Notes under the pieces: generated by a model | Database searches by the model: none | Seen by the model: only the letters and a program-made list of their open reading frames with translations | Told to the model about the DNA's origin: nothing | NCBI GenBank assembly: GCA_937136455.1 | Contig: CAKZOO010000059.1 | Span: 1 to 64,000, forward strand | Length of the DNA stretch: 64,000 nucleotides | Direction: 5' to 3' | DNA from: an uncultured Flavobacteriaceae bacterium | Lineage (GTDB): Bacteria; Bacteroidota; Bacteroidia; Flavobacteriales; Flavobacteriaceae | Made by a program: the position numbers and the translations under genes | Part shown: positions 41,243 through 57,685 of the stretch, one piece after another | How the letters are laid out: every line of letters starts with the position of its first letter | Numbering within the stretch: the first letter of the stretch is position 1

Positions 41243-41270
41243 ATTATAATGATCCTGATCCTAATGTCAA
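41243..41270 (-). promoter_or_regulatory. Sigma70-type promoter
   Basis: minus TTGACA-N16-TATAAT. Confidence 0.8.
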
Positions 41271-41313
41271 CACTTTATTTTAACCTTTTTACTGTCTATA
41301 TAGTCTTAGTAAT

Positions 41314-41472
41314 GATTATATAGTTTCATTTTGCCCATTTTAGCCCTTTTTCAAGGGTTTCTAAATCCCTTGATTCCTCTGTAGCCCTTGCTGTATAAGG
41401 TTTTGCGAGATTAATAGACGCCAAACCGCCAGCGGAAAAGGGTCAAAAACCAGAAAATGAAACTATATAATC
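41314..41472. repeat. 19-bp perfect inverted repeat (41314-41332 / 41454-41472) related to the 6.2-kb repeat arms
   Basis: GATTATATAGTTTCATTTT and AAAATGAAACTATATAATC. Confidence 0.9.
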
Positions 41473-42087
41473 ACTATTAATATTAATAATAGTACTATTC
41501 TAATGATGATGATTGTTTTAGCGTGTGTTAATCCTATATAACGAATAGTTATGATTGATTAGCCTATTATAAGTAATATTTATGTTAGTTAAATAGTGGG
41601 ATTCCTCCGCTGTTTGATCCTATATTGTAGCTTATTTGATTATTATACTATGATTAATTATGATTGTTAATACTTGATTGATTATTAGTGATTGATTGTT
41701 ACTATTGATTATGATTAATTATTATGTTAAGCCTTATTTTGATTGGTCTATAGCTTGATCGCTCGGTCATTCGTTGCCACTCATTCCCTCGCTTATAGCC
41801 TATTAGATTGTAAGGCTCTGTAAAGCTCTGTAAGACGTTTTAAGGTTGTGTTAATATGATTTACTGTTAGATAGGGTTAAAAGCTCTTAGGATTGATTCT
41901 AGATAGGTTATATTTGATTGTTGTATAGTATTGTTTTGTTTATTTGTATTGTATGTATTTATCTAGTTGTATAAGAGAGTTTAACAAGGTTAGTATAGAG
42001 AAAATGAGAATGATCAAGCGTATAAGCTCTTGTATGCGCCTGTAAGCCTTGTTATTAGTGAGTTGGTATGATTTATTAGCTATTATA

Positions 42088-42118
42088 CAAAAAGCCTGTT
42101 AGGATTGCTTACAGGCTT
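42088..42118 (-). terminator. Rho-independent terminator
   Basis: minus AAGCCTGT-AAGCAATCCTA-ACAGGCTTTTTG. Confidence 0.85.
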
Positions 42119-42398
42119 ATATTAGTAAAGGTTTTGTATTCTTAAGATCCCTTATAATACTATTTAAGCTAGTCTTATGATATATGCGGATCGTACCTTG
42201 TCGGGTTGTCATTGCATCCGTTCTAAGCTCCCAAGTTTTTGATCTTGTCTTGTGTCCTTTGTGGTTAGCTATTCTAATGAGTTTGACTTGTTTAGAGTGT
42301 AGTTTGATATAGATCGATCCTGTGGTCTTGCTTGGTATCACTACAGGGTTTAAGTGTTGGCAATGTGGCAAGAGTTGATCAAGTAACTTAGTAAGCAT
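42117..42398 (-). CDS. Hypothetical early protein
   Basis: 93 aa ORF ahead of terminator. Confidence 0.6.
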   Translation of the reverse strand: MLTKLLDQLLPHCQHLNPVVIPSKTTGSIYIKLHSKQVKLIRIANHKGHKTRSKTWELRTDAMTTRQGTIRIYHKTSLNSIIRDLKNTKPLLI

Positions 42399-42412
42399 TT
42401 TGTAAGCTCCAA

Positions 42413-42439
42413 TAAAAAAGCCCTAGGATTAACTAGGGC
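42413..42439 (-). terminator. Rho-independent terminator
   Basis: minus GCCCTAG-TTAATC-CTAGGGC-TTTTTT. Confidence 0.85.
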
Positions 42440-42457
42440 AAACAGTCAAGGGAATGA

Positions 42458-42685
42458 TCAATCTGTAGTGTGAATAATACGAGCATATGATCCGTTATTA
42501 CGATCACACCAGTAAAGCAATTCTTTTTCTGTCACCATATCAGATAAAACATCTGTTAAGGTCTTACTACCTGCGTATACATTGCCTATTGCTTTCTTGG
42601 CGGCTTCCATTGGGCAATTGAAATTAAAAGTACCGTTGTATTTGTCGGTGTGTGTTAAGTATACTTCTACAGTGAATTTAGCCAT
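42458..42685 (-). CDS. Hypothetical early protein
   Basis: 75 aa ORF with upstream promoter. Confidence 0.6.
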   Translation of the reverse strand: MAKFTVEVYLTHTDKYNGTFNFNCPMEAAKKAIGNVYAGSKTLTDVLSDMVTEKELLYWCDRNNGSYARIIHTTD

Positions 42686-42743
42686 TGTGACTTGCTCCGA
42701 TTAAGTTTAAAAGGTGGGGCGCTTTGCCCCTTGCTTGAGTTGT

Positions 42744-42772
42744 ATTATTACCGATCTTGATATTGGTGTCAA
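42744..42772 (-). promoter_or_regulatory. Sigma70-like promoter
   Basis: minus TTGACA-N17-AATAAT. Confidence 0.5.
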
Positions 42773-42781
42773 CAATTGTTT

Positions 42782-43015
42782 TTAAATATTTTCAATTAAT
42801 GGATCAGCGTGTCTTGCTCTTTCTAGTGCCTCTTTGTTGTTAGCTCTTAACCCCTCTTTAGCAGATAGGATTATATCGACAACGCCTTGACTAGAAAACA
42901 ATTTTACTTCGTAGATGTTACCAGCTACCATACCCAAACCTACTATATAACCTTTATCCTCTAACATTGCTAAGGTCTGGCTTGCCATTAAAGCTACTTT
43001 TGAAACTGCTAACAT
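42782..43015 (-). CDS. Hypothetical early protein
   Basis: 77 aa ORF. Confidence 0.6.
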   Translation of the reverse strand: MLAVSKVALMASQTLAMLEDKGYIVGLGMVAGNIYEVKLFSSQGVVDIILSAKEGLRANNKEALERARHADPLIENI

Positions 43016-43054
43016 TTGAAATTATCCTTTGTTTTGTCTGTTTAACTGTGTACT

Positions 43055-43083
43055 ATTGTAAGGCTTAACTATTTTGCAGTCAA
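43055..43083 (-). promoter_or_regulatory. Sigma70-type promoter
   Basis: minus TTGACT-N17-TACAAT. Confidence 0.7.
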
Positions 43084-43100
43084 GCCTTTTTGCAAATAAT

Positions 43101-43319
43101 TTAAAATTGTACATCTAGTAAAGCATTGCCTAATGTAAGATAGTAATCGTTAGCCGCTTGCTTTCTTGCTTCAGTTAGTGAAGTGCTAGCTGATTTGTTT
43201 AGGTTGTTTTCAACTTCTTTAATGTATAAAGCGTGAAAACCATCAGCCTCTTTTTCTTGGTTCGCTGCTAAATCTAAGGCTAAATTTAAGTGAGTTAAAA
43301 AATCATTACCTGTGTACAT
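43101..43319 (-). CDS. Hypothetical early protein
   Basis: 72 aa ORF. Confidence 0.6.
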   Translation of the reverse strand: MYTGNDFLTHLNLALDLAANQEKEADGFHALYIKEVENNLNKSASTSLTEARKQAANDYYLTLGNALLDVQF

Positions 43320-43367
43320 TTTAAGTTTTCCTTTTGTTGGTGGGCTTCCCCGTTTGACTTGCTGCCC

Positions 43368-43395
43368 ATTATAAGGATCTAGACAAGCAAGTCAA
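43368..43395 (-). promoter_or_regulatory. Sigma70-type promoter
   Basis: minus TTGACT-N16-TATAAT. Confidence 0.8.
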
Positions 43396-43406
43396 CAACT
43401 ATTTTA

Positions 43407-43802
43407 CTATTTAGTTAATAAATTATGATGCTCTAATTGTTCACTAGTAAAATATGAAAAACGTCTAGCAAAAGGTGATCTTTCAAATGCTGCCCAGCTT
43501 GGAAAAGTGCGGACACTGATCGCCATCTCAAAGCCCTTGCTTTCATTTGTGGCATAGGTAACACGGATCGCGGTTCTCTTCTTGCTCTTAAGCTTTTCTA
43601 GCTCTGCTAACATCTCAGCCTTTTTTACTCTTTCACCATTCAAAAACATAGGTAAATGATTAGTTTTATATAGGATCGAATCCTTGCCCGTTTTGCTTAA
43701 TAAATCTATTGCGAACCCTACACGATCAAAGGCTCTTTCATAAACCTGATAGATTGATCCTAGACCTTGGCAATATGTGATTGAATCGACTGATTTAAGC
43801 AT
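43407..43802 (-). CDS. Hypothetical early protein
   Basis: 131 aa ORF. Confidence 0.6.
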   Translation of the reverse strand: MLKSVDSITYCQGLGSIYQVYERAFDRVGFAIDLLSKTGKDSILYKTNHLPMFLNGERVKKAEMLAELEKLKSKKRTAIRVTYATNESKGFEMAISVRTFPSWAAFERSPFARRFSYFTSEQLEHHNLLTK

Positions 43803-43835
43803 TTTAATTTATCCTTTTCTCTTGTTTAGGGCTTC

Positions 43836-43865
43836 ATTATAAAGCTAATTAATTAACACTGTCAA
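43836..43865 (-). promoter_or_regulatory. Sigma70-type promoter
   Basis: minus TTGACA-N18-TATAAT. Confidence 0.7.
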
Positions 43866-43890
43866 CAACTAAATGATAAAAACTTTAAAT

Positions 43891-44130
43891 TTATTTATAC
43901 TCTTCAATTTTTAAACAATAGATAGAGTTTTCAGCTTGAGCCGTTACAATGTCACCATCAAAGGCAAAGGCTCGACTAATAAGATCCTCGGCTTGTGTGA
44001 TTGTTAAATACTGACCTTGTAAGGCTGTTAATGTTGCCACTTCTGCGATCTGATCTCCACCTTCAGCAATGATAAGATCTAGTAGTGTTTGACAGCCTTG
44101 TGAATTGGTAACAGTTAAAAATACTTTCAT
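43891..44130 (-). CDS. Hypothetical early protein
   Basis: 79 aa ORF. Confidence 0.6.
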   Translation of the reverse strand: MKVFLTVTNSQGCQTLLDLIIAEGGDQIAEVATLTALQGQYLTITQAEDLISRAFAFDGDIVTAQAENSIYCLKIEEYK

Positions 44131-44142
44131 TGTAAATTGTCC

Positions 44143-44265
44143 TTAATATTTAGCAAGTGTAATAATTAAAGTAGCTACTAAAAAAGTCGCACCTAAACCA
44201 GTTAAGCCAGTTGCAACAAGTACAGCGCCAGCACAAGCCATTTTAAGTTTAGTAAGTGTTTTCAT
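44143..44265 (-). CDS. 40-aa small membrane protein
   Basis: MKTLTKLKMACAGAVLVATGLTGLGATFLVATLIITLAKY. Confidence 0.5.
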   Translation of the reverse strand: MKTLTKLKMACAGAVLVATGLTGLGATFLVATLIITLAKY

Positions 44266-44304
44266 TTTGTAGCCCTCTTTGGGTTGTTCGTTTAAGTTGT
44301 GGTC

Positions 44305-44332
44305 ATTATACCTAACTGATTTACACTGTCAA
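44305..44332 (-). promoter_or_regulatory. Sigma70-type promoter
   Basis: minus TTGACA-N16-TATAAT. Confidence 0.8.
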
Positions 44333-44390
44333 TACATTAAATGCAAATTAGTTAAATTAATTGTAAGGGCGATTTCTCGCCCCGTTAGGC

Positions 44391-44612
44391 TTAAAGTTTA
44401 TCTGGATCAATGTTGTAGATAGATTCGTTTGTAGCCGTATAAGTTGCTTTTTCAAGCGTTGTATTGTTAAGGATAATCAAAAGTTCAAAGCTTAAATCAG
44501 AATTGCTATAGTAACTAGTTGAAAGTGTCACGCCCTCTTGTGAGCGTAGAATTAAGCCGTGTTTCTCGATTAGTTCAGCGATTTGATGATCAGTTAGATT
44601 TAAATTTTTCAT
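44391..44612 (-). CDS. Hypothetical early protein
   Basis: start set at MKNLNLTDHQ next to RBS. Confidence 0.6.
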   Translation of the reverse strand: MKNLNLTDHQIAELIEKHGLILRSQEGVTLSTSYYSNSDLSFELLIILNNTTLEKATYTATNESIYNIDPDKL

Positions 44613-44670
44613 TTGAATTTTACCTTTTATTATAGCCTGTTGCATTAGTGCCGTTGGTCTATGTGTGGCA

Positions 44671-44699
44671 TTATGGGGCTAAACGGTTTTATAGTCAAG
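44671..44699 (-). promoter_or_regulatory. Sigma70-type promoter
   Basis: minus TTGACT-N17-CATAAT. Confidence 0.7.
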
Positions 44700-44722
44700 C
44701 CCCTTTTTCAATTAATTTTAAA

Positions 44723-45028
44723 TTATTTTAGACGTTGCCCAAACTGATTAAAATGTATGTATTCGGCTTGCCTTTTTCTTAGTGCATCTTGATAGGCTGG
44801 CTTTTTATTCTCTGGTATTGGATCACCTATCTTGTAAAAGGTATCAAAGATCGTTAGTATTGAGGCTGGTTTAATTGATCCGCCCTTACTAAGTGCATTT
44901 AGGGTTTTATTGCCCACGTAAGAGCCTTTACCAGCTTTTAAAAGCTTTCTTAATACTTTGGCTCTCATTTTCTCCTGAAGCGCTGCCTGTGCGTTGTGGG
45001 CTTCATATTTTGCGATATTTGATAACAC
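44723..45028 (-). CDS. Hypothetical early protein
   Basis: 101 aa ORF. Confidence 0.6.
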   Translation of the reverse strand: MLSNIAKYEAHNAQAALQEKMRAKVLRKLLKAGKGSYVGNKTLNALSKGGSIKPASILTIFDTFYKIGDPIPENKKPAYQDALRKRQAEYIHFNQFGQRLK

Positions 45029-45062
45029 TTTACTTTCTCCAATCTGTTTTGTTTACAGGGCT

Positions 45063-45091
45063 ATTATCTGATAATTAATAAACCCCGTCAA
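45063..45091 (-). promoter_or_regulatory. Sigma70-type promoter
   Basis: minus TTGACG-N17-GATAAT. Confidence 0.65.
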
Positions 45092-45109
45092 GCACTTTTT
45101 GAAAAAGAT

Positions 45110-45250
45110 TTAAATTATTCTCAAAACTCTGGTTTTACGTTTTGCCGCTTCTTCCATAGCCCAGCCGATCCGCATGGCTGTAGCACAATTAAAGGTATAA
45201 CTTGTTCCATCTTCAAAATATGCCGTATGTGTTGGTTTAGCTTGTTTCAT
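45110..45250 (-). CDS. 46-aa hypothetical protein not in ORF track
   Basis: MKQAKPTHTAYFEDGTSYTFNCATAMRIGWAMEEAAKRKTRVLRII; ATGA overlap with upstream stop. Confidence 0.5.
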   Translation of the reverse strand: MKQAKPTHTAYFEDGTSYTFNCATAMRIGWAMEEAAKRKTRVLRII

Positions 45251-45576
45251 TACTTTGTCACCATATCATTAAAACCGTTTTCAATCAACCACTTTGCAAA
45301 AAGTGATCCCTTTCTCTCGCTTTTGTTCCATATTGGGCTTTTCAATTGCTCCGCGATCCATGTTACCACATCTTTTTGAACTTGTGAAGCCCATTTACGC
45401 ACCAAGCCATGATCAAATTCAGGAACACAATTGAAAAAAGAATAATCTTGATCCCCATCTTTATACACTTTTAAAATGTGGGCTGTTTTATCTTCAGAGA
45501 GAAAATAACACGTAGTTACTTTAAAAACATACTTAGAATCATTGGTTAAATAGATTTGGTTTAAATTGTAATTCAT
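45250..45576 (-). CDS. Hypothetical early protein
   Basis: start moved to MNYNLNQIY because the longer ORF start overlaps the promoter. Confidence 0.6.
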   Translation of the reverse strand: MNYNLNQIYLTNDSKYVFKVTTCYFLSEDKTAHILKVYKDGDQDYSFFNCVPEFDHGLVRKWASQVQKDVVTWIAEQLKSPIWNKSERKGSLFAKWLIENGFNDMVTK

Positions 45577-45607
45577 GGTTAAATTATCCTTTTGTTTAAG
45601 TCTGGGC

Positions 45608-45636
45608 ATTATGGGGCAATTGTTCGCCCCTGTCAA
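45608..45636 (-). promoter_or_regulatory. Sigma70-type promoter
   Basis: minus TTGACA-N17-CATAAT. Confidence 0.7.
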
Positions 45637-45649
45637 TAAGTATTTTAAA

Positions 45650-45988
45650 TTAATTCTTAATCATACCCATTACATATAGTAAATCAAGCTTATGGTTTTC
45701 ATAGTGAGCTATACGACTTTCAAACGTACCAGAACGGGCTTTCATGTTTAAGCTGGTAAACTCTTTGATCTTCTTGCTAACGTCCGTTAGACGTAATTCT
45801 AGGCGCTGATAGATGCCGCCTTTGTAGCCTGTCTTTGTGCGATTAATAAGAGTACGAAAAGCAAGGTAAACCGCACGCAAACAACCAGCAAAATATTTGC
45901 CCTTGAAACCACCAAAGATCGTAGCTCGTTGTGCTGCCATTTTCCAAGCTTGCTTGAAGATTTTAGATTTAGTTGATAAGTTAAACAT
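45650..45988 (-). CDS. Hypothetical early protein
   Basis: 112 aa basic ORF. Confidence 0.6.
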   Translation of the reverse strand: MFNLSTKSKIFKQAWKMAAQRATIFGGFKGKYFAGCLRAVYLAFRTLINRTKTGYKGGIYQRLELRLTDVSKKIKEFTSLNMKARSGTFESRIAHYENHKLDLLYVMGMIKN

Positions 45989-46035
45989 GAATTTTTCCTT
46001 TCGTTGTGTTGTGTTGTTCTCTTTAACTGTGACCT

Positions 46036-46063
46036 ATTATAATGATCTAAATTTTAGAGTCAA
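46036..46063 (-). promoter_or_regulatory. Sigma70-type promoter
   Basis: minus TTGACT-N16-TATAAT. Confidence 0.8.
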
Positions 46064-46332
46064 CACCTATTTTTAATTTTTTCGTAAAAAGTTGCTTTAT
46101 TGTGACTATGAAAACCTAGATCAATGCTTTTAGTGGTTTTATTGAAATAGATAACAATAAAGTTGCCCGTTCTTTTTTCACCAACAAAGAAGCCTTTTAA
46201 CTCTGATCCTACATGGTATGGATCAACCGTGTTTAGGTCTACAGACAATTTAGGGGCGTGAGTAAGTACCAGATCGATCAAGTCTTGCTGTAAGTTGTGA
46301 TCACGGGCTGCTGTTAGAAAATTGTTACTCAT
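46060..46332 (-). CDS. Hypothetical early protein
   Basis: 90 aa ORF. Confidence 0.6.
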   Translation of the reverse strand: MSNNFLTAARDHNLQQDLIDLVLTHAPKLSVDLNTVDPYHVGSELKGFFVGEKRTGNFIVIYFNKTTKSIDLGFHSHNKATFYEKIKNRC

Positions 46333-46334
46333 GG

Positions 46335-46592
46335 CTAGATCTGTCCTTCAAAATAAAGTGCTACAACTGGGCAAGCTTTGCAATGCTCTTTGATCTCGCG
46401 CTTGCTCATTTCTAAATCGCTGATAGTATCGGATATTTCGCCTTGTTTGTCAATAGCTTTTTGCTCGATTCTTTCTTTTTGTGCCTCGGTCTTACCTTCA
46501 AGATCATAGGCTGTTTGTTCAATCTCAACTTGTGTATTAAAGCGGTTTACAAGCCCTTGAATGCGTTTTAGAGTTGCTTTATTCTTAGCCAC
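46335..46592 (-). CDS. Hypothetical early protein
   Basis: 85 aa ORF. Confidence 0.6.
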   Translation of the reverse strand: MAKNKATLKRIQGLVNRFNTQVEIEQTAYDLEGKTEAQKERIEQKAIDKQGEISDTISDLEMSKREIKEHCKACPVVALYFEGQI

Positions 46593-46633
46593 GACTTTCT
46601 CCCGTGATTGGCTTTCTCTTAACTGTGTGACCT

Positions 46634-46661
46634 ATTATAAAGTCACACGATTAAAAGTCAA
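46634..46661 (-). promoter_or_regulatory. Sigma70-type promoter
   Basis: minus TTGACT-N16-TATAAT. Confidence 0.8.
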
Positions 46662-46668
46662 TACCTAA

Positions 46669-47031
46669 TTAAAGAAATTCAGATAAAATATTTTTAGCCT
46701 GTTTTCTTGTTTGGCTTAATTTCAATTCATTAGCTCGATATTCAAAACGGCCTAATGATTGAATAGCAAGATCAATTGCTTGGCGCTCGTTGTCTCCAAT
46801 TCGTGAATCATGGAAAATAAGAGGACGATCCGCCCCGACTGGCTTAACCATGATACGAATACTAGGCCAGCAAGATAAACCGCTTAATTCGATCTTAACA
46901 TCAATATTGATTAGCTCGTCATCTGAATTAAGAACATCAAAATTAAACCCTGTGCCTGTGTCGTGTTGCTTTACTGTTTCACGTACTGCACTATTTACGA
47001 GGTTAGTTAAAAATTCCATTGAATTCTCCAA
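46669..47031 (-). CDS. Hypothetical early protein
   Basis: 120 aa ORF. Confidence 0.6.
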   Translation of the reverse strand: MENSMEFLTNLVNSAVRETVKQHDTGTGFNFDVLNSDDELINIDVKIELSGLSCWPSIRIMVKPVGADRPLIFHDSRIGDNERQAIDLAIQSLGRFEYRANELKLSQTRKQAKNILSEFL

Positions 47032-47077
47032 GTTTGGTAAGTGAGGTTAAACCCTTTGCTTAACCTCTTAACTACGT

Positions 47078-47105
47078 ATTATAAGGATTTAGATCCCTGT
47101 GTCAA
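47078..47105 (-). promoter_or_regulatory. Sigma70-type promoter
   Basis: minus TTGACA-N16-TATAAT. Confidence 0.8.
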
Positions 47106-47107
47106 CA

Positions 47108-47494
47108 CTATTTTAGTTTATTTAGTAGAAAAGTTTCTACAGCGTTAAAACCGTTGTGAATTTCACCCGTTGCGGTGTCGGTTAGTTCAAAGGTTAAGCG
47201 GTCAGTATTTACCGTGATAAGGAACGGAACACCACCAAGGATCAAAGCGTTTGCCATTAGTTCGGGCTTTGCCTTGAATAGTTCGGTTAATACCTGTTCG
47301 CCTAGGTCTTTAATATAAGCTAAACGAGCCTTAAACACTTCTAAGCAAGCTTGACGTTGTGCGGCTAGGTTTGCAACGCTTGGCATTTTGTCATAGACTA
47401 GACGGGCTTTGTCGGCTGTCTCTTGTGCCTTAACTACTGCTAACTGCTTAGTATTATTTTGTGCTAGTGCTGTTTTTTGCTTTTCCATTTTCAT
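47108..47494 (-). CDS. Hypothetical early protein
   Basis: 128 aa ORF. Confidence 0.6.
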   Translation of the reverse strand: MKMEKQKTALAQNNTKQLAVVKAQETADKARLVYDKMPSVANLAAQRQACLEVFKARLAYIKDLGEQVLTELFKAKPELMANALILGGVPFLITVNTDRLTFELTDTATGEIHNGFNAVETFLLNKLK

Positions 47495-47532
47495 CTCCTT
47501 AGATGTTTAGTTAACTTAACTTTAGAGCCTCA

Positions 47533-47560
47533 ATTCTAAAGCCCTAAAATCTAATGTCAA
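47533..47560 (-). promoter_or_regulatory. Sigma70-type promoter
   Basis: minus TTGACA-N16-TAGAAT. Confidence 0.7.
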
Positions 47561-47563
47561 CTA

Positions 47564-47668
47564 TTAAAACAAAATATTTGCTAATAATTTTAAACCTAAA
47601 ATACCAGTCGGGATCATCATTAGGTGAGTAATAAACCAGATATAACCTTTTAACATTTTAGTATTCAT
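47564..47668 (-). CDS. 34-aa small membrane protein
   Basis: MNTKMLKGYIWFITHLMMIPTGILGLKLLANILF. Confidence 0.45.
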   Translation of the reverse strand: MNTKMLKGYIWFITHLMMIPTGILGLKLLANILF

Positions 47669-47717
47669 TTGAATTTATCCTTATAGTAAGTAGTTTGCTT
47701 TGCTTCAATAACTACGT

Positions 47718-47745
47718 ATTATAAGGATATTGATCAGGGTGTCAA
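47718..47745 (-). promoter_or_regulatory. Sigma70-type promoter
   Basis: minus TTGACA-N16-TATAAT. Confidence 0.8.
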
Positions 47746-48056
47746 CACTTATTTATAAAATTATTGCAAATATCCCATAATTTTTGAAAACCGTTATTAT
47801 TGATCCGTTGCTTAGTTCGGATCTCTCTTACTATGTTGTAACTTTTCCCGTCTTCGCTGGGAGTCCTTACAACGTGTTGCACTTCGTTTGATCCACTGTT
47901 TAAGCGGTCAGTTTTGATGATCAATAAATCGTGATCACCATAGAAAAATTCAATTTGTTGACCGTAAACATTGAGCCATAATTTAAGCTTATTTTCCGCG
48001 ATCAATTGTTCAAGAATCTTTGAAACTTGATTAAGTGTTTTTACTTCTGCAAACAT
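47742..48056 (-). CDS. Hypothetical early protein
   Basis: 104 aa ORF. Confidence 0.6.
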   Translation of the reverse strand: MFAEVKTLNQVSKILEQLIAENKLKLWLNVYGQQIEFFYGDHDLLIIKTDRLNSGSNEVQHVVRTPSEDGKSYNIVREIRTKQRINNNGFQKLWDICNNFINKC

Positions 48057-48099
48057 GGTAAAGCCTCTTGATTTGTCCTTGTTTGTTTATCTGTGGTTC

Positions 48100-48127
48100 A
48101 TTATAAGGATATTTGATCGCCCGTCAA
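48100..48127 (-). promoter_or_regulatory. Sigma70-type promoter
   Basis: minus TTGACG-N16-TATAAT. Confidence 0.75.
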
Positions 48128-50471: not shown

Positions 50472-50473
50472 TG

Positions 50474-51247
50474 TTATACCTCCTTACCATTAACACAAGC
50501 AAAATGAAAGTGCAAGCAATATTTCATAAGACTATAATCGCCCTCGTTAAGCTTGTGTAATGCCTTGTTAAAACCTAAGCTTTTCAAATACTCTTCAATT
50601 GATTCAATAGTATTGTGTTTAGATTTATCTTGGTGTGTCTTTTCTAACCACTTGAAAAACTCAAGATCCTTAAATGGTGTCGAATTCTTGCCAGTGTCGG
50701 GAATATTAAACACTTCTTTTTCTAAGATACCTTTTAATAAAACCTTTGCCGCTTCTCGCTTCTGCTGTTTGATCCAGTGTGGCTTTAAAACGTCCTCAAA
50801 AGCTCCCCAACAAGAGATCATAACATCGTCAAGGGTTTTATTGTAAAACTTACAAAGTGCCTTAGAAAGCGTTACAGCGTCATCATAGCTAGATAAGAAA
50901 ACTACAAAAGTTTTCTCTTTAAGTACGCAAAGTTTAAATTGCTTTGTACCTTCTCGCCAGTATGCCAAATTATTTAATTTAAGGATCGTTTGTTCAAAAC
51001 CTTTTAAACTATATTGTGCATCACTGATTAAACCGTTATAGTATAGGTTTTCATCTTGTCTATAAAGTACCGTACCTTCAAACATGATCGCCTGTAGTGC
51101 AATATCATTACCTTGTGCAAGGTCTAACGGGCTGTAATGTCTGCCAACTTCAAAAGCTTCTGAACTATTTTGTACCTGATACGAATAGCCATTATGCATC
51201 ATATCATATTGAAGGTTATGAATAAGTTTAGATTGAATCTGTGCCAT
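50474..51247 (-). CDS. Hypothetical early protein
   Basis: 257 aa ORF. Confidence 0.65.
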   Translation of the reverse strand: MAQIQSKLIHNLQYDMMHNGYSYQVQNSSEAFEVGRHYSPLDLAQGNDIALQAIMFEGTVLYRQDENLYYNGLISDAQYSLKGFEQTILKLNNLAYWREGTKQFKLCVLKEKTFVVFLSSYDDAVTLSKALCKFYNKTLDDVMISCWGAFEDVLKPHWIKQQKREAAKVLLKGILEKEVFNIPDTGKNSTPFKDLEFFKWLEKTHQDKSKHNTIESIEEYLKSLGFNKALHKLNEGDYSLMKYCLHFHFACVNGKEV

Positions 51248-51302
51248 AATTATAAATTCCTATAGTTGGCTAAAAGTAAGTTTCTCTTATCTATAGCCCC
51301 GT

Positions 51303-51330
51303 ATTATACAGAGCTATAAATCAAAGTCAA
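51303..51330 (-). promoter_or_regulatory. Sigma70-type promoter
   Basis: minus TTGACT-N16-TATAAT. Confidence 0.8.
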
Positions 51331-51339
51331 CAATTAATT

Positions 51340-51906
51340 TTAAAAAATCTTTCGAGTTTCTAAGCTTGGGAATTCACTATAAAATAACCAGTTAGTTAGT
51401 TTAAAATAGTTCTCCCAAGTGCGAGACATACCCCAAACAGGTTGATACTCTTTTTGTGCATCAGCTACGAAACTTTTAAGATTATAACCATGCTTTAAAG
51501 AAAGTTCAAGTATTATTTTATGAGTTTCTGATAAAAACTTTTTATCGCTTAATGTGCTTAAAACTTCAGCGCCATCAGTCCATAAAAGTTTATGTTTGAA
51601 AACACCTTTTTCTTTAGCAAGGCTTGATTTCCAATTGTCAAACAATGGTTGATTAAAAGTGAATTTAAAAATTGCATTATCTTGTTTTTCAGATTCCCAT
51701 TGTTTATATACTGTAACATGGGCAACTCTATCACACAAGACTTTTCTTGATACACAATAAAAACCCCTTGGATCAAGTCCTCTTTCTTCACATAGGCGTT
51801 TCATCTCTTGGAAAATATTCTCATCTGAAGCCATAGGGAAAGAGTTTGTAACAATACCTAAGCGTGTTTTTAACTGTTCTAATGTAATCACTTTTAATTT
51901 CTCCAA
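51340..51906 (-). CDS. Hypothetical early protein
   Basis: 188 aa ORF. Confidence 0.65.
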   Translation of the reverse strand: MEKLKVITLEQLKTRLGIVTNSFPMASDENIFQEMKRLCEERGLDPRGFYCVSRKVLCDRVAHVTVYKQWESEKQDNAIFKFTFNQPLFDNWKSSLAKEKGVFKHKLLWTDGAEVLSTLSDKKFLSETHKIILELSLKHGYNLKSFVADAQKEYQPVWGMSRTWENYFKLTNWLFYSEFPSLETRKIF

Positions 51907-51932
51907 GTGGTTGTTTTGTTTAACTGTTACCT

Positions 51933-51960
51933 ATTATAAGGATTTAATTTTTAAATGCAA
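51933..51960 (-). promoter_or_regulatory. Sigma70-type promoter
   Basis: minus TTGCAT-N16-TATAAT. Confidence 0.75.
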
Positions 51961-51968
51961 GCTTTATT

Positions 51969-52127
51969 TTATAAACTTTCGCGGTATTTGTGATCTTTTG
52001 CCGCTTGGCGTTGGCGCTTCAAAAGCTTAGCTTGTTTCTTTGCTGCTTTTCGCCCTAGCTGCTGATCGTGCTGCTCTTGGTTAACTACTACGCGCTTTGT
52101 GTTCTTCATTGGTGCATTTGGTTTCAT
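51969..52127 (-). CDS. 52-aa highly basic protein not in ORF track
   Basis: MKPNAPMKNTKRVVVNQEQHDQQLGRKAAKKQAKLLKRQRQAAKDHKYRESL. Confidence 0.5.
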   Translation of the reverse strand: MKPNAPMKNTKRVVVNQEQHDQQLGRKAAKKQAKLLKRQRQAAKDHKYRESL

Positions 52128-52128
52128 T

Positions 52129-52632
52129 CTAATACCTGTAATTAAATCTAATACTTTGAACCATTACAGCGCCATTATCAGAAGGTAATACACCTAAATC
52201 AACCGTAAAGCTTACTTTTTCGGTTAGTGGGTATTTTACCGCGATACTGGGCAAAATGTAAAGGCTTAAATGTTTATTTAAATATGCCGCCCCTGCCTGA
52301 TCTTTAGTGTAGCCAGTGACAGCCCCTAACATTAAGTTAGTGCTAACCTGTACCGTGTTTAGTTGGTACTTGGTTAACTTCCAATTATAACCAATCAAGT
52401 GAGATCGATTATAATAGGAATTTTCAAAGGTTGCAACAACTATTTTATTATTAAATATTAAGCCTTTCATATGATGATCGGCATTAAATAGGTTGTTATC
52501 TTGTCCTTTGATATAGTGTTGAGACTTAGCGCCAATTATAGCGCTTATTGTCTCTGTATGACCTTGTAACGGGCTTAAACCGATAATCAAGGTCATTGCA
52601 CTAATTAACCGTTTAATGGGCGTACTGTGCAT
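52129..52632 (-). CDS. Putative secreted/outer-membrane beta-barrel protein
   Basis: Signal peptide MHSTPIKRLISAMTLIIGLSPLQGHTET; alternating beta pattern; C-terminal IRFNYRY. Confidence 0.55.
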   Translation of the reverse strand: MHSTPIKRLISAMTLIIGLSPLQGHTETISAIIGAKSQHYIKGQDNNLFNADHHMKGLIFNNKIVVATFENSYYNRSHLIGYNWKLTKYQLNTVQVSTNLMLGAVTGYTKDQAGAAYLNKHLSLYILPSIAVKYPLTEKVSFTVDLGVLPSDNGAVMVQSIRFNYRY

Positions 52633-52933
52633 TTTGGAACGCTTCAGACATTGCCGTCATAGGTTGGATCGGCTCTGGGCTGTGTTGCTTAGCGTGTTCT
52701 TTTGCTGTTAATACATCTTGACCCACAACAAAGATTTTACGCTTAATTCGTTGTGCTGGTAAACGCAAAGAACGATTAACCTTTGACGGTAGTTTTAGAG
52801 TACCTTTAGTAAAAGGAATAGGCCATAAACCACCAACCTTTGATCGTGCTTGCTTAGTAAGCTTATAACCTGCCATAGTGTTGATAATAGTGCCTAGTGT
52901 ACGTGCATTGTTACGGTTTGCTACTGCTAACAT
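52613..52933 (-). CDS. Hypothetical basic early protein
   Basis: 106 aa ORF. Confidence 0.6.
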   Translation of the reverse strand: MLAVANRNNARTLGTIINTMAGYKLTKQARSKVGGLWPIPFTKGTLKLPSKVNRSLRLPAQRIKRKIFVVGQDVLTAKEHAKQHSPEPIQPMTAMSEAFQNAQYAH

Positions 52934-52982
52934 AATTTACCCTTATTGGTTTATTTAAAGTTTCTCTTAATGAGTAACCCTG

Positions 52983-53010
52983 ATTATAAGGGCTACTGTT
53001 TAAAAGTCAA
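52983..53010 (-). promoter_or_regulatory. Sigma70-type promoter
   Basis: minus TTGACT-N16-TATAAT. Confidence 0.8.
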
Positions 53011-53017
53011 CTACTTT

Positions 53018-53287
53018 TTAAAAGAATTTTTCTAAAGTTGGCAATTCTTGCTCTGTTACTGGTTTACAATCATAAAGTGTGTAAATCATTTCACCGTGTA
53101 GATCTTCTATCTGCTGACCCTTTTCTAGCCACTCAGCGCCATCATCAAGATTACAATGACATTCAGCTAGTAATGCCTGTGTTGCTGCACTTTCTTCTGT
53201 TACAGCGTGTTTGACAAGCGTGTGTGTCGTCTTCTCATATTCACCAGTTTGAATTTTAAGTGTTACTAAGAATGCTACCGTTTTCAT
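53018..53287 (-). CDS. Hypothetical early protein
   Basis: 89 aa ORF. Confidence 0.6.
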   Translation of the reverse strand: MKTVAFLVTLKIQTGEYEKTTHTLVKHAVTEESAATQALLAECHCNLDDGAEWLEKGQQIEDLHGEMIYTLYDCKPVTEQELPTLEKFF

Positions 53288-53312
53288 AAATTACCCTTTT
53301 AGGTTGTTTGTT

Positions 53313-53855
53313 TTAACTGTTTACTAGTTTACTTGATTCATTTTGAAAGTCAACAACATTTTGAAGAGTTTCAAAATTTATTTGCATCGGGATTGCTTCA
53401 ATAATTCCGCCCACATCTAGAACCACCTTAGACGCGATTTCTACCGCTTCCGCTGGTTTTAGTTCAGGATTAGCCAGCATTGCCCCGTGTGCAACTCTAC
53501 GACCTGATCCAATGCAATAAAGATCATCAACTATCTCAAGTTGCATAAGTTCACCATCTTTTAAATAGAACTCATACAGTGCGTTAGATATGCGGTCATA
53601 GTACACGGCTATATTATTTTTTGCAAGTGTTTTCTTGAACAATTTTAAAAGATGTTTACGATCATATTTGAGCTTGTGCCATTGATCCGAAATATTACCG
53701 ATCACGCCCATTTCACCAGATACAAAAATAAATTGCTCTTGCTTTGGACACTGTACCCATTTACAATATCGATCTGATCGAATCTCACCTTGCCAAGTAA
53801 CACGGCTATCAATAGCGATCTGGTTGTGTGTCTTACTAATAACTAAACAGGTCAT
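53313..53855 (-). CDS. Proteasome beta/HslV-like Ntn hydrolase, putative
   Basis: M-TCLVISKTHNQIAIDSRVTWQG...K; FVSGEMGVIG; DDLYCIGSGRRVAHGAMLANPELKPAEAVEIASKVVLDVGG. Confidence 0.7.
   Translation of the reverse strand: MTCLVISKTHNQIAIDSRVTWQGEIRSDRYCKWVQCPKQEQFIFVSGEMGVIGNISDQWHKLKYDRKHLLKLFKKTLAKNNIAVYYDRISNALYEFYLKDGELMQLEIVDDLYCIGSGRRVAHGAMLANPELKPAEAVEIASKVVLDVGGIIEAIPMQINFETLQNVVDFQNESSKLVNS
53326..53353 (-). promoter_or_regulatory. Sigma70-like promoter
   Basis: minus TTGACT-N16-TAAACT. Confidence 0.45.
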
Positions 53856-53858
53856 AAA

Positions 53859-54155
53859 TTATAAATCCTTTGCAATTAAAACATATTCTGTTTGTGGGAA
53901 TGCTTTATAATGTGCCACCATGTAACCGCTTTTAGCGTAACGCTCACCAAGCGCATGAGGTGCATAAAATCGTTTACATATATAAACTAAAGCCCTTTGA
54001 AAATCATCATCACAAATCTTTAGAGCCTGATCTACTGTATCACCATCTTTGCAAAACTCTTTAGTGATTGTATTATGCCCGTTTGAAAACTTAATACGTG
54101 TCGGCTTTGTTGCCGTTTCTGGTAAAATTTTTGCTTTGATTGCCCAATTAGCCAT
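53859..54155 (-). CDS. Hypothetical early protein
   Basis: 98 aa ORF. Confidence 0.6.
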   Translation of the reverse strand: MANWAIKAKILPETATKPTRIKFSNGHNTITKEFCKDGDTVDQALKICDDDFQRALVYICKRFYAPHALGERYAKSGYMVAHYKAFPQTEYVLIAKDL

Positions 54156-54202
54156 TTTTAAATTATCCTAATGTTAGTTAGTTTCTCTTAACTTAGGACT
54201 TC

Positions 54203-54230
54203 ATTATAAAGCCCTAAATTTAAAAGTCAA
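54203..54230 (-). promoter_or_regulatory. Sigma70-type promoter
   Basis: minus TTGACT-N16-TATAAT. Confidence 0.8.
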
Positions 54231-54481
54231 CTATTATTTTCAACTATTGTGATCAGGTCTTCAAGTGAAAGATCAAAAATACTGTAATGTTGTTGATCAA
54301 ATCCGATTAAGGTTAATTGATCATGTACTATCACCAATTCACTAAAACTTTCAAAACCTACATGTAAAGCGTTTGAATGGCTTACAACCTTTGATTCTAC
54401 TTTAGAGTTTATCACAAGATCTCTAAGTGTTGCAAGTGTTTGTGTCTCTAAATCTCTGTAACGCTTTTTTAATGTTTCCAT
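54227..54481 (-). CDS. Hypothetical early protein
   Basis: 84 aa ORF. Confidence 0.6.
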   Translation of the reverse strand: METLKKRYRDLETQTLATLRDLVINSKVESKVVSHSNALHVGFESFSELVIVHDQLTLIGFDQQHYSIFDLSLEDLITIVENNS

Positions 54482-54523
54482 GACTTACCTTTTTAATTAA
54501 GTTTTCTCTTGTCTATGGGCAGT

Positions 54524-54553
54524 ATTATAAACCGCCCATAATTCAAAAGTCAA
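54524..54553 (-). promoter_or_regulatory. Sigma70-type promoter
   Basis: minus TTGACT-N18-TATAAT. Confidence 0.7.
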
Positions 54554-54558
54554 ACATT

Positions 54559-54975
54559 TTAAACACTAAATTTTAAATCTTTCATACGCTTTTCAGCCGC
54601 GACAATATAAGCCACAATTACAGGATCATATTTTTGTCTATACTTTTTAATAATGTCTAAAGACAAACGCGCATCAGCTACTTTATCAACAAGATCATTA
54701 TAAGTCTTGTCATTATATTTCACCATATCATTATAAATATTCTCGGCATGATTTGCAACTTCTTCAGTAACAAATTTTGCAACACCATGATCACCCATAG
54801 CGAAGATTAAAAAGCCGTGGTAAGATTGGCTTGATTCACTTACATAACGATCAAGGTTTAGATCATCTTTAATCATGCAAGCGTTAAAACCGTTCTCGTT
54901 TGGCGTACCTGTGTACGTCTTACCAACTGTAAACATTTTTGTATCTCTTGGTAAACCAGTGCAAACTACTTTCAT
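54559..54975 (-). CDS. Hypothetical early protein
   Basis: start moved to MKVVCTGLPRD since the longer ORF start lies in the promoter. Confidence 0.6.
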   Translation of the reverse strand: MKVVCTGLPRDTKMFTVGKTYTGTPNENGFNACMIKDDLNLDRYVSESSQSYHGFLIFAMGDHGVAKFVTEEVANHAENIYNDMVKYNDKTYNDLVDKVADARLSLDIIKKYRQKYDPVIVAYIVAAEKRMKDLKFSV

Positions 54976-55007
54976 TTTTAATTGTTCCTTTTTGTTTAAG
55001 TAAAGCC

Positions 55008-55035
55008 AGTTTAACAGACTGGCGGCTGGTGTCAA
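55008..55035 (-). promoter_or_regulatory. Sigma70-like promoter
   Basis: minus TTGACA-N16-TAAACT. Confidence 0.6.
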
Positions 55036-55043
55036 TAGTTAAA

Positions 55044-55499
55044 TTAAGAAATTTTAACTCTTTTTTGTAGGTGGATAAAAAAGGCACTACCTAACGACAT
55101 AGAAGATCCGCTTGGCTTTCTGTATCGCGTTATTTTAGCCCATTTAGCTAATAGGGTTAGTTCGCTATTGCGTAACTGTGTAACGTCCTTAGAAAAGCTT
55201 ACAAACGGTTTTAGAACACCTTTTGCCATTGCTCTAGTTGGTTTTGTGTGGTAGTAAATCTGACCTTTTCGAGCGTCCTCATCTGCAGCCAAACGCGCCC
55301 CAACTTCTCGGCTAGTACCACAATCAACATGTAACTTGTATGATAAGGCTTTGCCATCTTCCCCGATGATTTCAATATCAACCGCTTGCATACCGTTTCT
55401 AGGGTTTGAATAAAAGCGGTAGTTACTACCTGAATCAGCTAAAAATTCATTGAAAGTTGCAATATCAGATCTTAGGTCAGAAATTGTATAACGTGCCAT
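55044..55499 (-). CDS. Hypothetical early protein
   Basis: 151 aa ORF. Confidence 0.6.
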   Translation of the reverse strand: MARYTISDLRSDIATFNEFLADSGSNYRFYSNPRNGMQAVDIEIIGEDGKALSYKLHVDCGTSREVGARLAADEDARKGQIYYHTKPTRAMAKGVLKPFVSFSKDVTQLRNSELTLLAKWAKITRYRKPSGSSMSLGSAFFIHLQKRVKIS

Positions 55500-55534
55500 T
55501 TTTAAATTATCCTTGTGTTTTGTTTATAGCGCCC

Positions 55535-55562
55535 ATTATACAGGACGCTTTCAGGTTGTCAA
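55535..55562 (-). promoter_or_regulatory. Sigma70-type promoter
   Basis: minus TTGACA-N16-TATAAT. Confidence 0.8.
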
Positions 55563-55730
55563 TTACTTTGATTCAATTACTTCAAAAGAATTTTTGTTTA
55601 GTGTTTTATCTACAAAGATCCCACTATCACCATATTTTTTGATCCATTGCTCACCCCGTTCTCTTGACCAAGTGAGACAATGTACAGCGTTATGGTTTTT
55701 CTTTTCAACTACTTTGAAATTACCTACCAT
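55563..55730 (-). CDS. 55-aa hypothetical protein not in ORF track
   Basis: MVGNFKVVEKKNHNAVHCLTWSRERGEQWIKKYGDSGIFVDKTLNKNSFEVIESK. Confidence 0.5.
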   Translation of the reverse strand: MVGNFKVVEKKNHNAVHCLTWSRERGEQWIKKYGDSGIFVDKTLNKNSFEVIESK

Positions 55731-55756
55731 TTTACCTACTTAAATTTGATTGTCAA
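55729..55756 (-). promoter_or_regulatory. Sigma70-like promoter
   Basis: minus TTGACA-N16-TAAAAT; very short leader to ATG at 55730. Confidence 0.5.
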
Positions 55757-55759
55757 CTA

Positions 55760-56155
55760 TTATTTTAAAATATTTTCTAAACTTTCAATCTCTGCTTTAC
55801 GCTCGGCTAAGTATTTAGCACCAAACGCCTGTAAATGCTCTGTAGCGGCCTTTTTAACTTCTTCAATATTATCAGGCAAGCATAAACAATGAAAGCTTAC
55901 ATAGCCCCATCGAGCGCTTAAATCGTTAATTTCAGGTAAACCGCCTTTTTCATAAAATGAATTACTATCAACCGAACCCAAGCCAGTTACAAGATCACAA
56001 AATTGGGCTGGTACAACATTTGGGCTTACTGATACATGAGTTAGGGCATTTTGTACCATTTCAACCGTTAAGCCATTGGTAAAATGTAATTGTGCTTTTA
56101 CCTGTACAAATTCAAAGCCGTTAGTATTTACTTCATCAAAATTAAAAGGTTTCAT
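55760..56155 (-). CDS. Hypothetical early protein
   Basis: start moved to MKPFNFDEV downstream of promoter. Confidence 0.6.
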   Translation of the reverse strand: MKPFNFDEVNTNGFEFVQVKAQLHFTNGLTVEMVQNALTHVSVSPNVVPAQFCDLVTGLGSVDSNSFYEKGGLPEINDLSARWGYVSFHCLCLPDNIEEVKKAATEHLQAFGAKYLAERKAEIESLENILK

Positions 56156-56195
56156 AATTTTCCTTAGTTGGTTTAACCTTGTTTCTATGCCAACT

Positions 56196-56224
56196 ATTTT
56201 AAGCTGGCATAATTTCAAAGTCAA
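56196..56224 (-). promoter_or_regulatory. Sigma70-type promoter
   Basis: minus TTGACT-N17-TAAAAT. Confidence 0.7.
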
Positions 56225-56227
56225 GCA

Positions 56228-56791
56228 CTAATTTATAATATCTTTTAAATTATATGCTTCTTTCATTACCTCTTTATAAGGTTTGCGATCATCATGCACC
56301 AGTAAGAAACGCTTAAAAGCTTGTTCAGGGAATTTATTTAAAAGCTCATTAAATTTATACATTGATCCACCAAAGGCAACACAAGCGGCCTTTTTCGTTG
56401 TACCGTCAATGTAACGCATTCTAAGCGCTTTTAAATTGGTTTCTGGTATAAAGCTATTGCCTAGCATAATTTCAGCCTTATAATAGCTTGTGAAGTGATG
56501 CACAACTTTAGCGCGATCATCTCCATAAAGATCATCAATACCTAAATATGGGTGACGTTTAAGCGCTGCCGTGAGAGAATCCGCAACACGTACATTGTAT
56601 ATTTCTTTAATGGTGTACTTCATAAAGGCTTTACTGTCAAAATCAACATCATAGCGCGATCCTATTTGGTGTTGTAGTCGGTAAAAACTAGGGGCAATAC
56701 TTGCAGCATATTGTTCCATTAATTCCGAAAATTCACGATCATTTTCAAGGGTTACAACAATGTTTTCTAAGTCAAAACTAGATAAAGCCAT
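56228..56791 (-). CDS. Hypothetical early protein
   Basis: 187 aa ORF. Confidence 0.65.
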   Translation of the reverse strand: MALSSFDLENIVVTLENDREFSELMEQYAASIAPSFYRLQHQIGSRYDVDFDSKAFMKYTIKEIYNVRVADSLTAALKRHPYLGIDDLYGDDRAKVVHHFTSYYKAEIMLGNSFIPETNLKALRMRYIDGTTKKAACVAFGGSMYKFNELLNKFPEQAFKRFLLVHDDRKPYKEVMKEAYNLKDIIN

Positions 56792-56836
56792 TTTTAAATT
56801 CTCCCGTGTTGGCTGTTTCTCTTAATCATGTAGCCC

Positions 56837-56865
56837 ATTTTAAAGGCTACATTGTTAAAAGTCAA
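56837..56865 (-). promoter_or_regulatory. Sigma70-type promoter
   Basis: minus TTGACT-N17-TAAAAT. Confidence 0.7.
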
Positions 56866-56868
56866 CAA

Positions 56869-57261
56869 CTATAAACAACAATCTTGTAAATTATTTACTA
56901 GCCCGTCAAAATCCTCTTCTATGCCTAAAAGATCGGCTAAGTGTTGCACCGTGTCAAGGTCTTGATCGTACTCTTCAGCCATACAAGCCAAGTAATCAGA
57001 TCGCCCTTTGTAACCCTCTCGCCAGTGCTGTTCCTCTTCTGGTAGAATATCCAAGCCCCAATAGTTAACGCAGTGATTGCAAGAGTCTAACACGCTTGAA
57101 AAAGTAATGTCAATAGGAAAAGGTGAATTTTCTTCTAAAAATGATACTTGATTATTTTGTTTACCATAAATAGTAAGAGCGCCACAATTACATTTTTGAA
57201 CGTCCATCTGGTTCTCATTTGCAGCCATGAAAAGGTTTAGAGCTTCAGTGATATTACACAT
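56869..57261 (-). CDS. Hypothetical early protein
   Basis: 130 aa acidic Cys-containing ORF. Confidence 0.6.
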   Translation of the reverse strand: MCNITEALNLFMAANENQMDVQKCNCGALTIYGKQNNQVSFLEENSPFPIDITFSSVLDSCNHCVNYWGLDILPEEEQHWREGYKGRSDYLACMAEEYDQDLDTVQHLADLLGIEEDFDGLVNNLQDCCL

Positions 57262-57304
57262 TTTAAATTATCCTTGATAGGTTGTTTTGTTTTATCTGGG
57301 GCTT

Positions 57305-57333
57305 ATATTATCAGCCCCGTTTTTAAATTGCAA
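57305..57333 (-). promoter_or_regulatory. Sigma70-like promoter
   Basis: minus TTGCAA-N17-TAATAT. Confidence 0.6.
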
Positions 57334-57343
57334 GCTTTATTTG

Positions 57344-57625
57344 TTAGATTTTGAAAATAATATTTTTTCTAATCTTGGCTATTTCTTCATCTGTTAAAGA
57401 TTCCTCAACTTGTGATCCAATGTTTACACCAAAAGCCGCTTGCAACATTCCGCCTATTATTTGGCGATCATCTCGCTTAGCTCTTGTTAAGCGGTCTTGA
57501 TACTTTACTAACTGCTTAGCGTGTGTTTTAGCCCATTTGATTGTTTTAACTTCTCTCACAAACTTAGTTAATGAGTAGTCATAACCATAAGGCAAAGCAA
57601 AAGATCCGAATTTAGAATTTAACAT
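57344..57625 (-). CDS. Hypothetical early protein
   Basis: 93 aa ORF. Confidence 0.6.
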   Translation of the reverse strand: MLNSKFGSFALPYGYDYSLTKFVREVKTIKWAKTHAKQLVKYQDRLTRAKRDDRQIIGGMLQAAFGVNIGSQVEESLTDEEIAKIRKNIIFKI

Positions 57626-57657
57626 TTGAAATTATCCTTTTGTTTAAGTTGCCGCCC

Positions 57658-57685
57658 ATTATACGCACCTTTTCGATCAGGTCAA
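57658..57685 (-). promoter_or_regulatory. Sigma70-type promoter
   Basis: minus TTGACC-N16-TATAAT. Confidence 0.75.

Follow-up and report, generated by a model that had tools for sequence, protein, structure and literature searches.

A dense array of early promoters combined with covarying RNA hairpins in a relative of Colwellia phage 9A

How might a phage line up some thirty strong promoters head to tail, with so few terminators between them? The question is raised by a cluster of small genes in the right-hand part of a 64,000-base stretch of DNA (the window), bases 1–64000 of a 75,105-base partial contig (C59) from a metagenome-type assembly. The window is phage DNA, since it contains genes for terminase, portal, a T7-like RNA polymerase, DNA polymerase and ribonucleotide reductase; the host is a marine bacterium. 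An earlier note on this sequence described about 30 near-consensus sigma70 promoters on the minus strand and proposed that transcription accumulates along them. It missed the main feature of the array, an RNA hairpin with the -10 box at its centre. A series of insulated transcription units is a better reading of the array than promoters that add up along one operon.

We scored matches to the 12 bases of the sigma70 consensus, allowing spacers of 16–18 nucleotides (nt), with dinucleotide shuffles as the control. On the minus strand between 41 and 58 kilobases (kb), 36 sites had at least 10 matches (7.6 ± 2.2 in shuffles), 20 had at least 11 (0.4 in shuffles) and six had all 12 (0.02 in shuffles). 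The same thresholds yielded only four, one and one sites on the plus strand of this region, and the minus strand in the rest of the window contained almost no sites with 11 or more matches. A second, independent tool also found minus-strand promoter sites. We removed sites that appeared to be due to chance, within open reading frames or non-coding A/T-rich sequence (54758, 52262, 51509, 46453, 57113, 55788, 52436 and 41670), and added three weaker intergenic sites (57333, 51994 and 48729). The resulting total of 29 agrees with the earlier count, as does the predominance of 16-nt spacers (17 of 26 curated sites, with 17 nt in seven and 18 nt in two). The 28 nt upstream of the promoters are 81% A+T, compared to 65% for the region, and match the UP-element consensus at 10.2 of 14 positions versus 8.3 of 14 in same-base shuffles.

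41243–57685, minus strand: early promoter array with about 29 sigma70-type promoters and about 40 small genes, read from 57.7 kb toward 41 kb (shuffle counts, gap association)
42420–42439, minus strand: canonical intrinsic terminator near the end of the array (terminator scan)

The promoters are tied to the gaps between genes, which bears out the earlier claim that nearly every small gene or gene pair has a promoter of its own. Using our own map of about 40 small minus-strand genes, we found a promoter (at least 9 of 12 matches) in almost every gap from about 50 nt upwards, the leading one included, usually with the end of the -10 box 30–60 nt upstream of the start codon. The sole larger gap without a promoter, 42457–42399, contains the canonical terminator instead. 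No promoters were assigned to gaps shorter than 35 nt, yet gene 55730 has a promoter, 55756, that lies within its upstream neighbour. A terminator scan gave 15 matches compared to 10.5 in shuffles, and only the site at 42439–42420 was clear.

The sequence GATC is also frequent here. It occurs 8.4 times per kb across 41001–58000, compared to 3.7 per kb elsewhere and 3.2 per kb expected, and is found within the spacers of 8 of 26 promoters (about 2.6 expected). We considered a Dam-type switch acting through spacer GATC sites and set it aside, since GATC is enriched across the whole early region.

When the promoters were read side by side, an inverted repeat became apparent whose centre is the -10 box and whose arms differ from site to site. 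Counting stems across the -10 box with a score of at least 8, the -10 forms the loop of an uninterrupted stem of 9–15 pairs in 9 of 26 promoters. When the downstream arms were permuted, 0.56 were expected, with a maximum of 4 in 1000 permutations. By a wider estimate, 9–12 of about 27 window promoters have a hairpin of this kind. When whole gaps were folded, most of these sites exhibited a second, outer helix. In this helix, the CUUUUAA that directly follows the -35 box pairs with the UUAAGAG of a conserved AAGAGAAAC further downstream, and there is an additional pairing of GUU with AAC. The outer helix is compensatorily changed at 47560 (UAGUUGAC with GUUAACUA) and at 56224 (UUGACUUUG with CAAGGUUAA). 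The whole bipartite hairpin contains approximately 19–25 pairs. Only one promoter hairpin, the weak 55023–55005, was listed in the terminator scan, and Rfam gave nothing at gathering scores.

We built a covariance model, R1, from nine window sites, and also searched with a model called R2. The promoter-hairpin units, which we call cassettes, are as follows (E, expectation value).

56807–56872, minus strand: long cassette, -35 starts at 56865, inner stem AUGUAGCCU/GGGCUACAU (R1 E 2.2e-9, as a member of the R1 training set; z -5.2 to -5.8)
56166–56231, minus strand: cassette, -35 starts at 56224, outer helix compensatorily changed (stem score, folding, R1)
54491–54560, minus strand: cassette, -35 starts at 54553, very like the cassette of Pseudoalteromonas phage J2-1 (stem score, folding, R1, J2-1 comparison)
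54172–54237, minus strand: cassette, -35 starts at 54230, with the homologous gene of phage 9A also preceded by a cassette (stem score, R1, R2, homology)
52949–53017, minus strand: cassette, -35 starts at 53010 (stem score, folding, R1)
51271–51337, minus strand: cassette, -35 starts at 51330, 15-bp inner stem (stem score, folding, R1)
49117–49182, minus strand: cassette, -35 starts at 49175 (stem score, folding, R1)
47501–47567, minus strand: cassette, -35 starts at 47560, a TTGACA variant whose downstream box has become GTTAACTA, with the outer pairing preserved (z -6.7, stem score, R1)
46603–46668, minus strand: cassette, -35 starts at 46661 (stem score, folding, R1)
46006–46070, minus strand: weaker cassette, -35 starts at 46063, outside the R1 training set (R1 E 0.0056; R2 E 6.4e-7, the site being part of R2)

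Several tests revealed that the pairing is under selection in sense-strand RNA. With G.U pairs allowed on the minus strand, the stem scores summed to 149, compared to 93.9 ± 6.9 after permutation; with A.C allowed instead, which is equivalent to G.U on the other strand, the sum was 90.5 compared to 84 ± 4.7. The nine stems contain 21 G.U pairs. Since G.U but not A.C is tolerated, the sense RNA, rather than DNA, is what selection acts on. A DNA hairpin promoter of the kind recognised by an N4-like virion polymerase was considered and provisionally set aside; the G.U preference points to RNA. A halves-permutation test of folding energy gave z values of -8.8 (sense) and -5.2 (antisense) for the window and of -4.5 (sense) and -0.8 (antisense) for Colwellia phage 9A. 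Over 19 cassettes aligned to an 18-pair structure, 88.4% of cells paired, compared to 71.9% in shuffles and at most 55% with slid partners, and there were 54 double changes, compared to 16.5 in shuffles and at most 18 when slid.

RNA synthesis at a sigma70 promoter starts about 7 nt after the -10 box. With such a start, a promoter's own transcript would lack the left (5′) arm, and the hairpin would mark only RNA that reads through from upstream. Leaders predicted for read-through RNA had a mean folding z of -2.64, with z below -2 in 17 of 27, whereas leaders predicted for primary transcripts had a mean of -0.01, with z below -2 in 1 of 27. A control, the 70 nt upstream of plus-strand genes, gave -0.48. 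By prediction, then, the hairpin is limited to read-through RNA and the primary leaders are unstructured. The structure in 17 of 27 regions and the covarying, promoter-containing hairpin in a large subset suggest that each promoter is a point at which read-through RNA is handled. Thus, the earlier statement that the array has almost no internal terminators stands in that canonical U-tract terminators are few, but the accumulation drawn from it fares badly, since most regions are strongly structured in read-through RNA. It is less likely that transcription just builds up from promoter to promoter.

Cassettes also occur in other phages. The closest relatives of the window phage are Colwellia phage 9A (RNA polymerase 69% and DNA polymerase 70% identical) and Shewanella phage KASIA (RNA polymerase 55% identical), in which part of the early genes lie within a 6.9-kb terminal repeat (PMC8541194). 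R1 matched two sites in 9A, one of which precedes a homolog of the window gene downstream of cassette 54230, as well as one additional site in the window, one site in Pseudoalteromonas phage J2-1 (E 6.5e-8) and several sites in IMG/VR contigs. In a repeat scan of IMG/VR, at least 15 of 123 sites among the matches listed had inner stems of 7 or more, compared to 7 by permutation. Most of the listed pattern matches were A/T-rich chance occurrences, and we retained only the R1-scored L103, L088, L057 and L074. In L057 and L088, the cassette has a gp30-like ligase gene on one side and an rIIA-like gene on the other, and another cassette-bearing contig, G013, encodes relatives of T4-type gp43, gp44, gp46 and gp47. 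Searches of whole records with R2 gave ten matches in the window's contig, two in 9A, one in J2-1, seven in G012 and nine in G013 (a few are the reverse strand of listed sites). R2 gave zero matches elsewhere in the window's assembly and zero in KASIA, RB49, T4, KVP40, Aeh1, 44RR, nt-1, 65, RB43 and SPO1. Early gene content differs between relatives and the cassette is found in unrelated phages; both observations bear on a possible shuffling of gene modules by recombination. The cassette is common to 9A-like phages and T4-like marine contigs.

Two further observations concern these relatives. In J2-1 (L154, annotated as Ounavirinae), two early genes, 17995–18276 and 18563–18988, are 39% and 44% identical to genes of the window phage, and both adjoin the single J2-1 cassette at 19027, suggesting joint movement of the genes and the cassette. 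At several early promoters of 9A (L005, record coordinates about 96000–100250; L002, about 3100), another type of hairpin directly follows the -10, such as GTGGTTAGC-aagtc-GCTAGCCAC, which would fall at the extreme 5′ end of the primary transcript.

We consider it fairly probable that the array consists of composite cassettes resembling the promoter(early) stem-loops (PeSLs) of T4-like phages, with each hairpin insulating neighbouring units. As DNA, a cassette is a strong host sigma70 promoter, with a UP-like tract, a TTGACW -35, a spacer of mostly 16 nt and a TATAAT-like -10, sited at the upstream gene's stop codon or directly behind it. In RNA from an upstream promoter, the -10 would fold into a loop and, in the long form, bases after the -35 would pair with the conserved AAGAGAAAC box. 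The cassette's own transcript, starting about 7 nt past the -10, would lack the 5′ arm and have an open leader. The hairpin in read-through RNA would then most likely insulate the units, either because it halts polymerase arriving from upstream or because it is cut or provides a protected 3′ end. In this way, the promoter of a gene probably doubles as insulation from the adjacent gene. A role in host takeover is plausible, given the position of the array and its small ORFan genes.

Several results weigh against insulating cassettes. The halves-permutation test gave no signal in KASIA, and 10 of the 27 promoter regions had z above -2, meaning no significant read-through structure. The alignment of 19 cassettes had been fitted to a model that started from hairpins of the window itself. 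The pattern by which the IMG/VR cassettes were selected contains the -35, the -10 and AAGAGAAA, which leaves the inner arms as the independent evidence there. No U-tract follows the inner or outer helix of the promoter hairpins, which are therefore not canonical intrinsic terminators, although the array does contain one of these at 42439. The last two points bear on how the hairpin would act. Termination and RNA processing have about equal odds, and we hold each only tentatively. As a terminator, the hairpin would halt incoming polymerase and prevent promoter occlusion, making each gene or gene pair its own unit. PeSL stem-loops reportedly act as terminators. These closest known elements are also named promoter-terminator motifs in a title cited by PMC4503421; the missing U-tract and the use of a canonical terminator at 42439 argue against this mode. 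If the RNA is processed, an endonuclease such as host RNase III would cut the imperfect 19–25 bp hairpin in read-through RNA to give uniform mRNA ends. In phage T7, RNase III cuts between early genes. The bipartite helix, with its predicted length and its small internal loops, would fit such a site, the outer helix is conserved despite being unnecessary for a terminator, and the absence of a U-tract also speaks for processing; the stems of the RB49 type, mostly about 7–9 bp, are short for RNase III. A more specific proposal, possible but rather doubtful, is that the 66 bases of one promoter family act in DNA as a sigma70 promoter and in read-through RNA as a bipartite processing hairpin whose arms covary. 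Transcripts started at the promoter and those read through from upstream would then acquire nearly the same 5′ end, and the cassette would move among unrelated marine phages (9A-like siphoviruses, J2-1 and T4-like phages).

Other explanations fit less of the data. The hairpin in read-through RNA could control translation by hiding the ribosome-binding site. T4 gene e, with late promoters in the 5′ strand of its hairpin, is a precedent (PMC3014915), and at 47745 the -10 can pair with the Shine-Dalgarno region. Across 27 sites, though, the start region is predicted to be similarly open in read-through RNA (mean unpaired 0.72) and primary RNA (0.79). Concealing the ribosome site is therefore not what the hairpins do in general, 47745 being an exception, and we regard this explanation as unlikely. 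That the symmetry is centred on the -10 could indicate a palindromic operator or an extruded cruciform regulating the promoter as DNA, but the arm sequences vary freely with pairing kept, unlike an operator, and the tolerance of G.U but not A.C points to one RNA strand, making a DNA-level role very improbable. Finally, the hairpins could be by-products of recent copying of one cassette within a plain early promoter array, as the flanks (TTGACTTTT, AAGAGAAAC) are alike among copies. Copying cannot yield compensatory arms or the difference between G.U and A.C, and this already disfavoured explanation is scarcely credible.

The other promoters recorded are as follows.

57658–57685, minus strand: first promoter of the array, upstream of gene 57625–57344, which is conserved in 9A (promoter scan, homology)
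57262–57343, minus strand: gap with a 9/12 promoter, -35 at 57333, -10 within the loop of GGGGCU-gauaauaua-AGCCCC (folding z -2.7)
55729–55756, minus strand: promoter for gene 55730–55563, overlaps the upstream gene at its 3′ end (promoter scan)
55535–55562, minus strand: 12/12 promoter, -10 spanned by a 7-bp stem (promoter scan, stem score)
48100–48127, minus strand: promoter without a -10 hairpin (promoter scan, folding)
47718–47745, minus strand: 12/12 promoter, -10 region predicted to pair with the Shine-Dalgarno region in read-through RNA (promoter scan, folding)
47078–47105, minus strand: 12/12 promoter followed by a leader hairpin (promoter scan, folding)
44305–44332, minus strand: 12/12 promoter (promoter scan)
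43836–43865, minus strand: 12/12 promoter, 18-nt spacer, short stem across the -10 (promoter scan, stem score)
43335–43402, minus strand: promoter at 43395, hairpin joining the -35 (UUGACUUGCU) to AGCAAGUCAA downstream of the -10 (z -3.3; R1 E 0.56, weak)
57722–57749, plus strand: 12/12 divergent promoter for plus-strand genes (promoter scan)

Between 47745 and 47668, AUCCUUAUA in the -10 region can pair with UAUAAGGAU in the Shine-Dalgarno region of read-through RNA, resembling the control of T4 gene e for this gene.

Of the approximately 40 small early genes, about 10 have a homolog in 9A or KASIA, and the early proteins examined had no informative family matches. Searches of viral and genome contigs with the RNA polymerase, DNA polymerase, early genes and first gene detected no close relative carrying the array, and the RNA polymerase was not found in the other genomes searched of the same genus. 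Later genes are presumably served by the phage's own polymerase, which scored 532 bits against phrog_414 and 146 bits against the N4-like phrog_2166.

6941–9580, minus strand: T7-like single-subunit RNA polymerase gene (family match, homology to relatives)

About 1.85 kb (40263–42116) without convincing genes separates converging transcription units. Phage 9A has a similar gap (93438–95571) with short patches 82–96% identical to that of the window. The window gap includes A/T-rich tandem repeats near 41636–41712 and, on the minus strand at about 41310–41490, a long inverted repeat read by eye (GATTATATAGTTTCATTTT ... AAAATGAAACTATATAATC, arms about 110–150 nt apart), for which Rfam gave only a weak match to a microRNA precursor, probably by chance. 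On the same strand, a perfect sigma70 promoter at 41270 has no downstream gene and is followed by a weak terminator-like hairpin (41069–41056). The segment 41270–41056 is a candidate small RNA of about 180 nt, with no Rfam match at gathering scores. Elsewhere, the plus strand carries a glutathionylspermidine synthase-like phage gene (25983–27302; phrog_6215, E 1.5e-94).

The cassettes show that a short sequence can come under selection at two levels, in DNA for its promoter and in read-through RNA for its hairpin, the second level being evident from covariation. They carry the PeSL idea beyond T4-like phages into another phage group, one that has a polymerase of its own, and offer a testable model for packing dozens of strong head-to-tail promoters without interference. 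The search model of 18 base pairs can be used to find cassettes in other genomes.

The array shares features with several known systems. In haloarchaeal virus HGTV-1, a TATA and inverted repeat motif that its authors already compared with PeSLs (PMC3950731) places a promoter element and inverted repeat before most genes of one genome arm; that promoter is archaeal, and the likeness is drawn from the description rather than the sequence. T4 gene e has a promoter within the 5′ strand of a hairpin present only in longer transcripts (PMC3014915), but this is a late promoter of a single gene whose ribosome site is hidden, while those of the window phage are mostly open. The SPO1 host-takeover module, which lies in a terminal repeat as part of the KASIA early genes do, likewise groups small early genes with numerous strong promoters of the host type. 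Among 10 plus-strand SPO1 sites tested, there was no excess of hairpins across the -10. In predicted length and shape, the helix would be compatible with a T7-type RNase III site.

PeSLs are the closest comparison. Scanning RB49, we found many early promoters with the -10 in the loop of stems with near-uniform arms, such as GGGAGTA/TACTCCC (12 stems of at least six Watson-Crick pairs, compared to 2.2 expected), which we take to be the published PeSLs and which are simpler than the window cassettes. This layout, together with the 35 early promoters predicted in T4-like phage UFV13 (PMC5931544), speaks against the earlier view that distributed early promoters are unusual among phages, as T4-type phages have dozens. 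Judging by titles cited in PMC4503421, PeSLs have been described as mobile regulatory cassettes and composite promoter-terminator motifs (Arbiol 2010, doi 10.1093/gbe/evq006; Comeau 2014, doi 10.1093/gbe/evu129). Both systems combine a strong sigma70 early promoter with a -10 in a stem loop, as seen directly in RB49, and both form dense arrays between small variable genes, with near-repeats within one genome. They differ in that the window carrier is a relative of siphovirus 9A with a T7-like polymerase rather than a T4-type phage, many window copies have a second, outer helix (-35-adjacent bases with AAGAGAAAC) and G.U-rich arms, and R2 has no match in RB49, T4, KVP40, Aeh1, 44RR, nt-1, 65 or RB43. 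L057, L088 and G013 carry the window-type cassette along with T4-type genes. At the level of sequence features, the window array appears to work like PeSLs, as a variant that differs in its carrier, in its second helix and in that the specific model finds no match in RB49.

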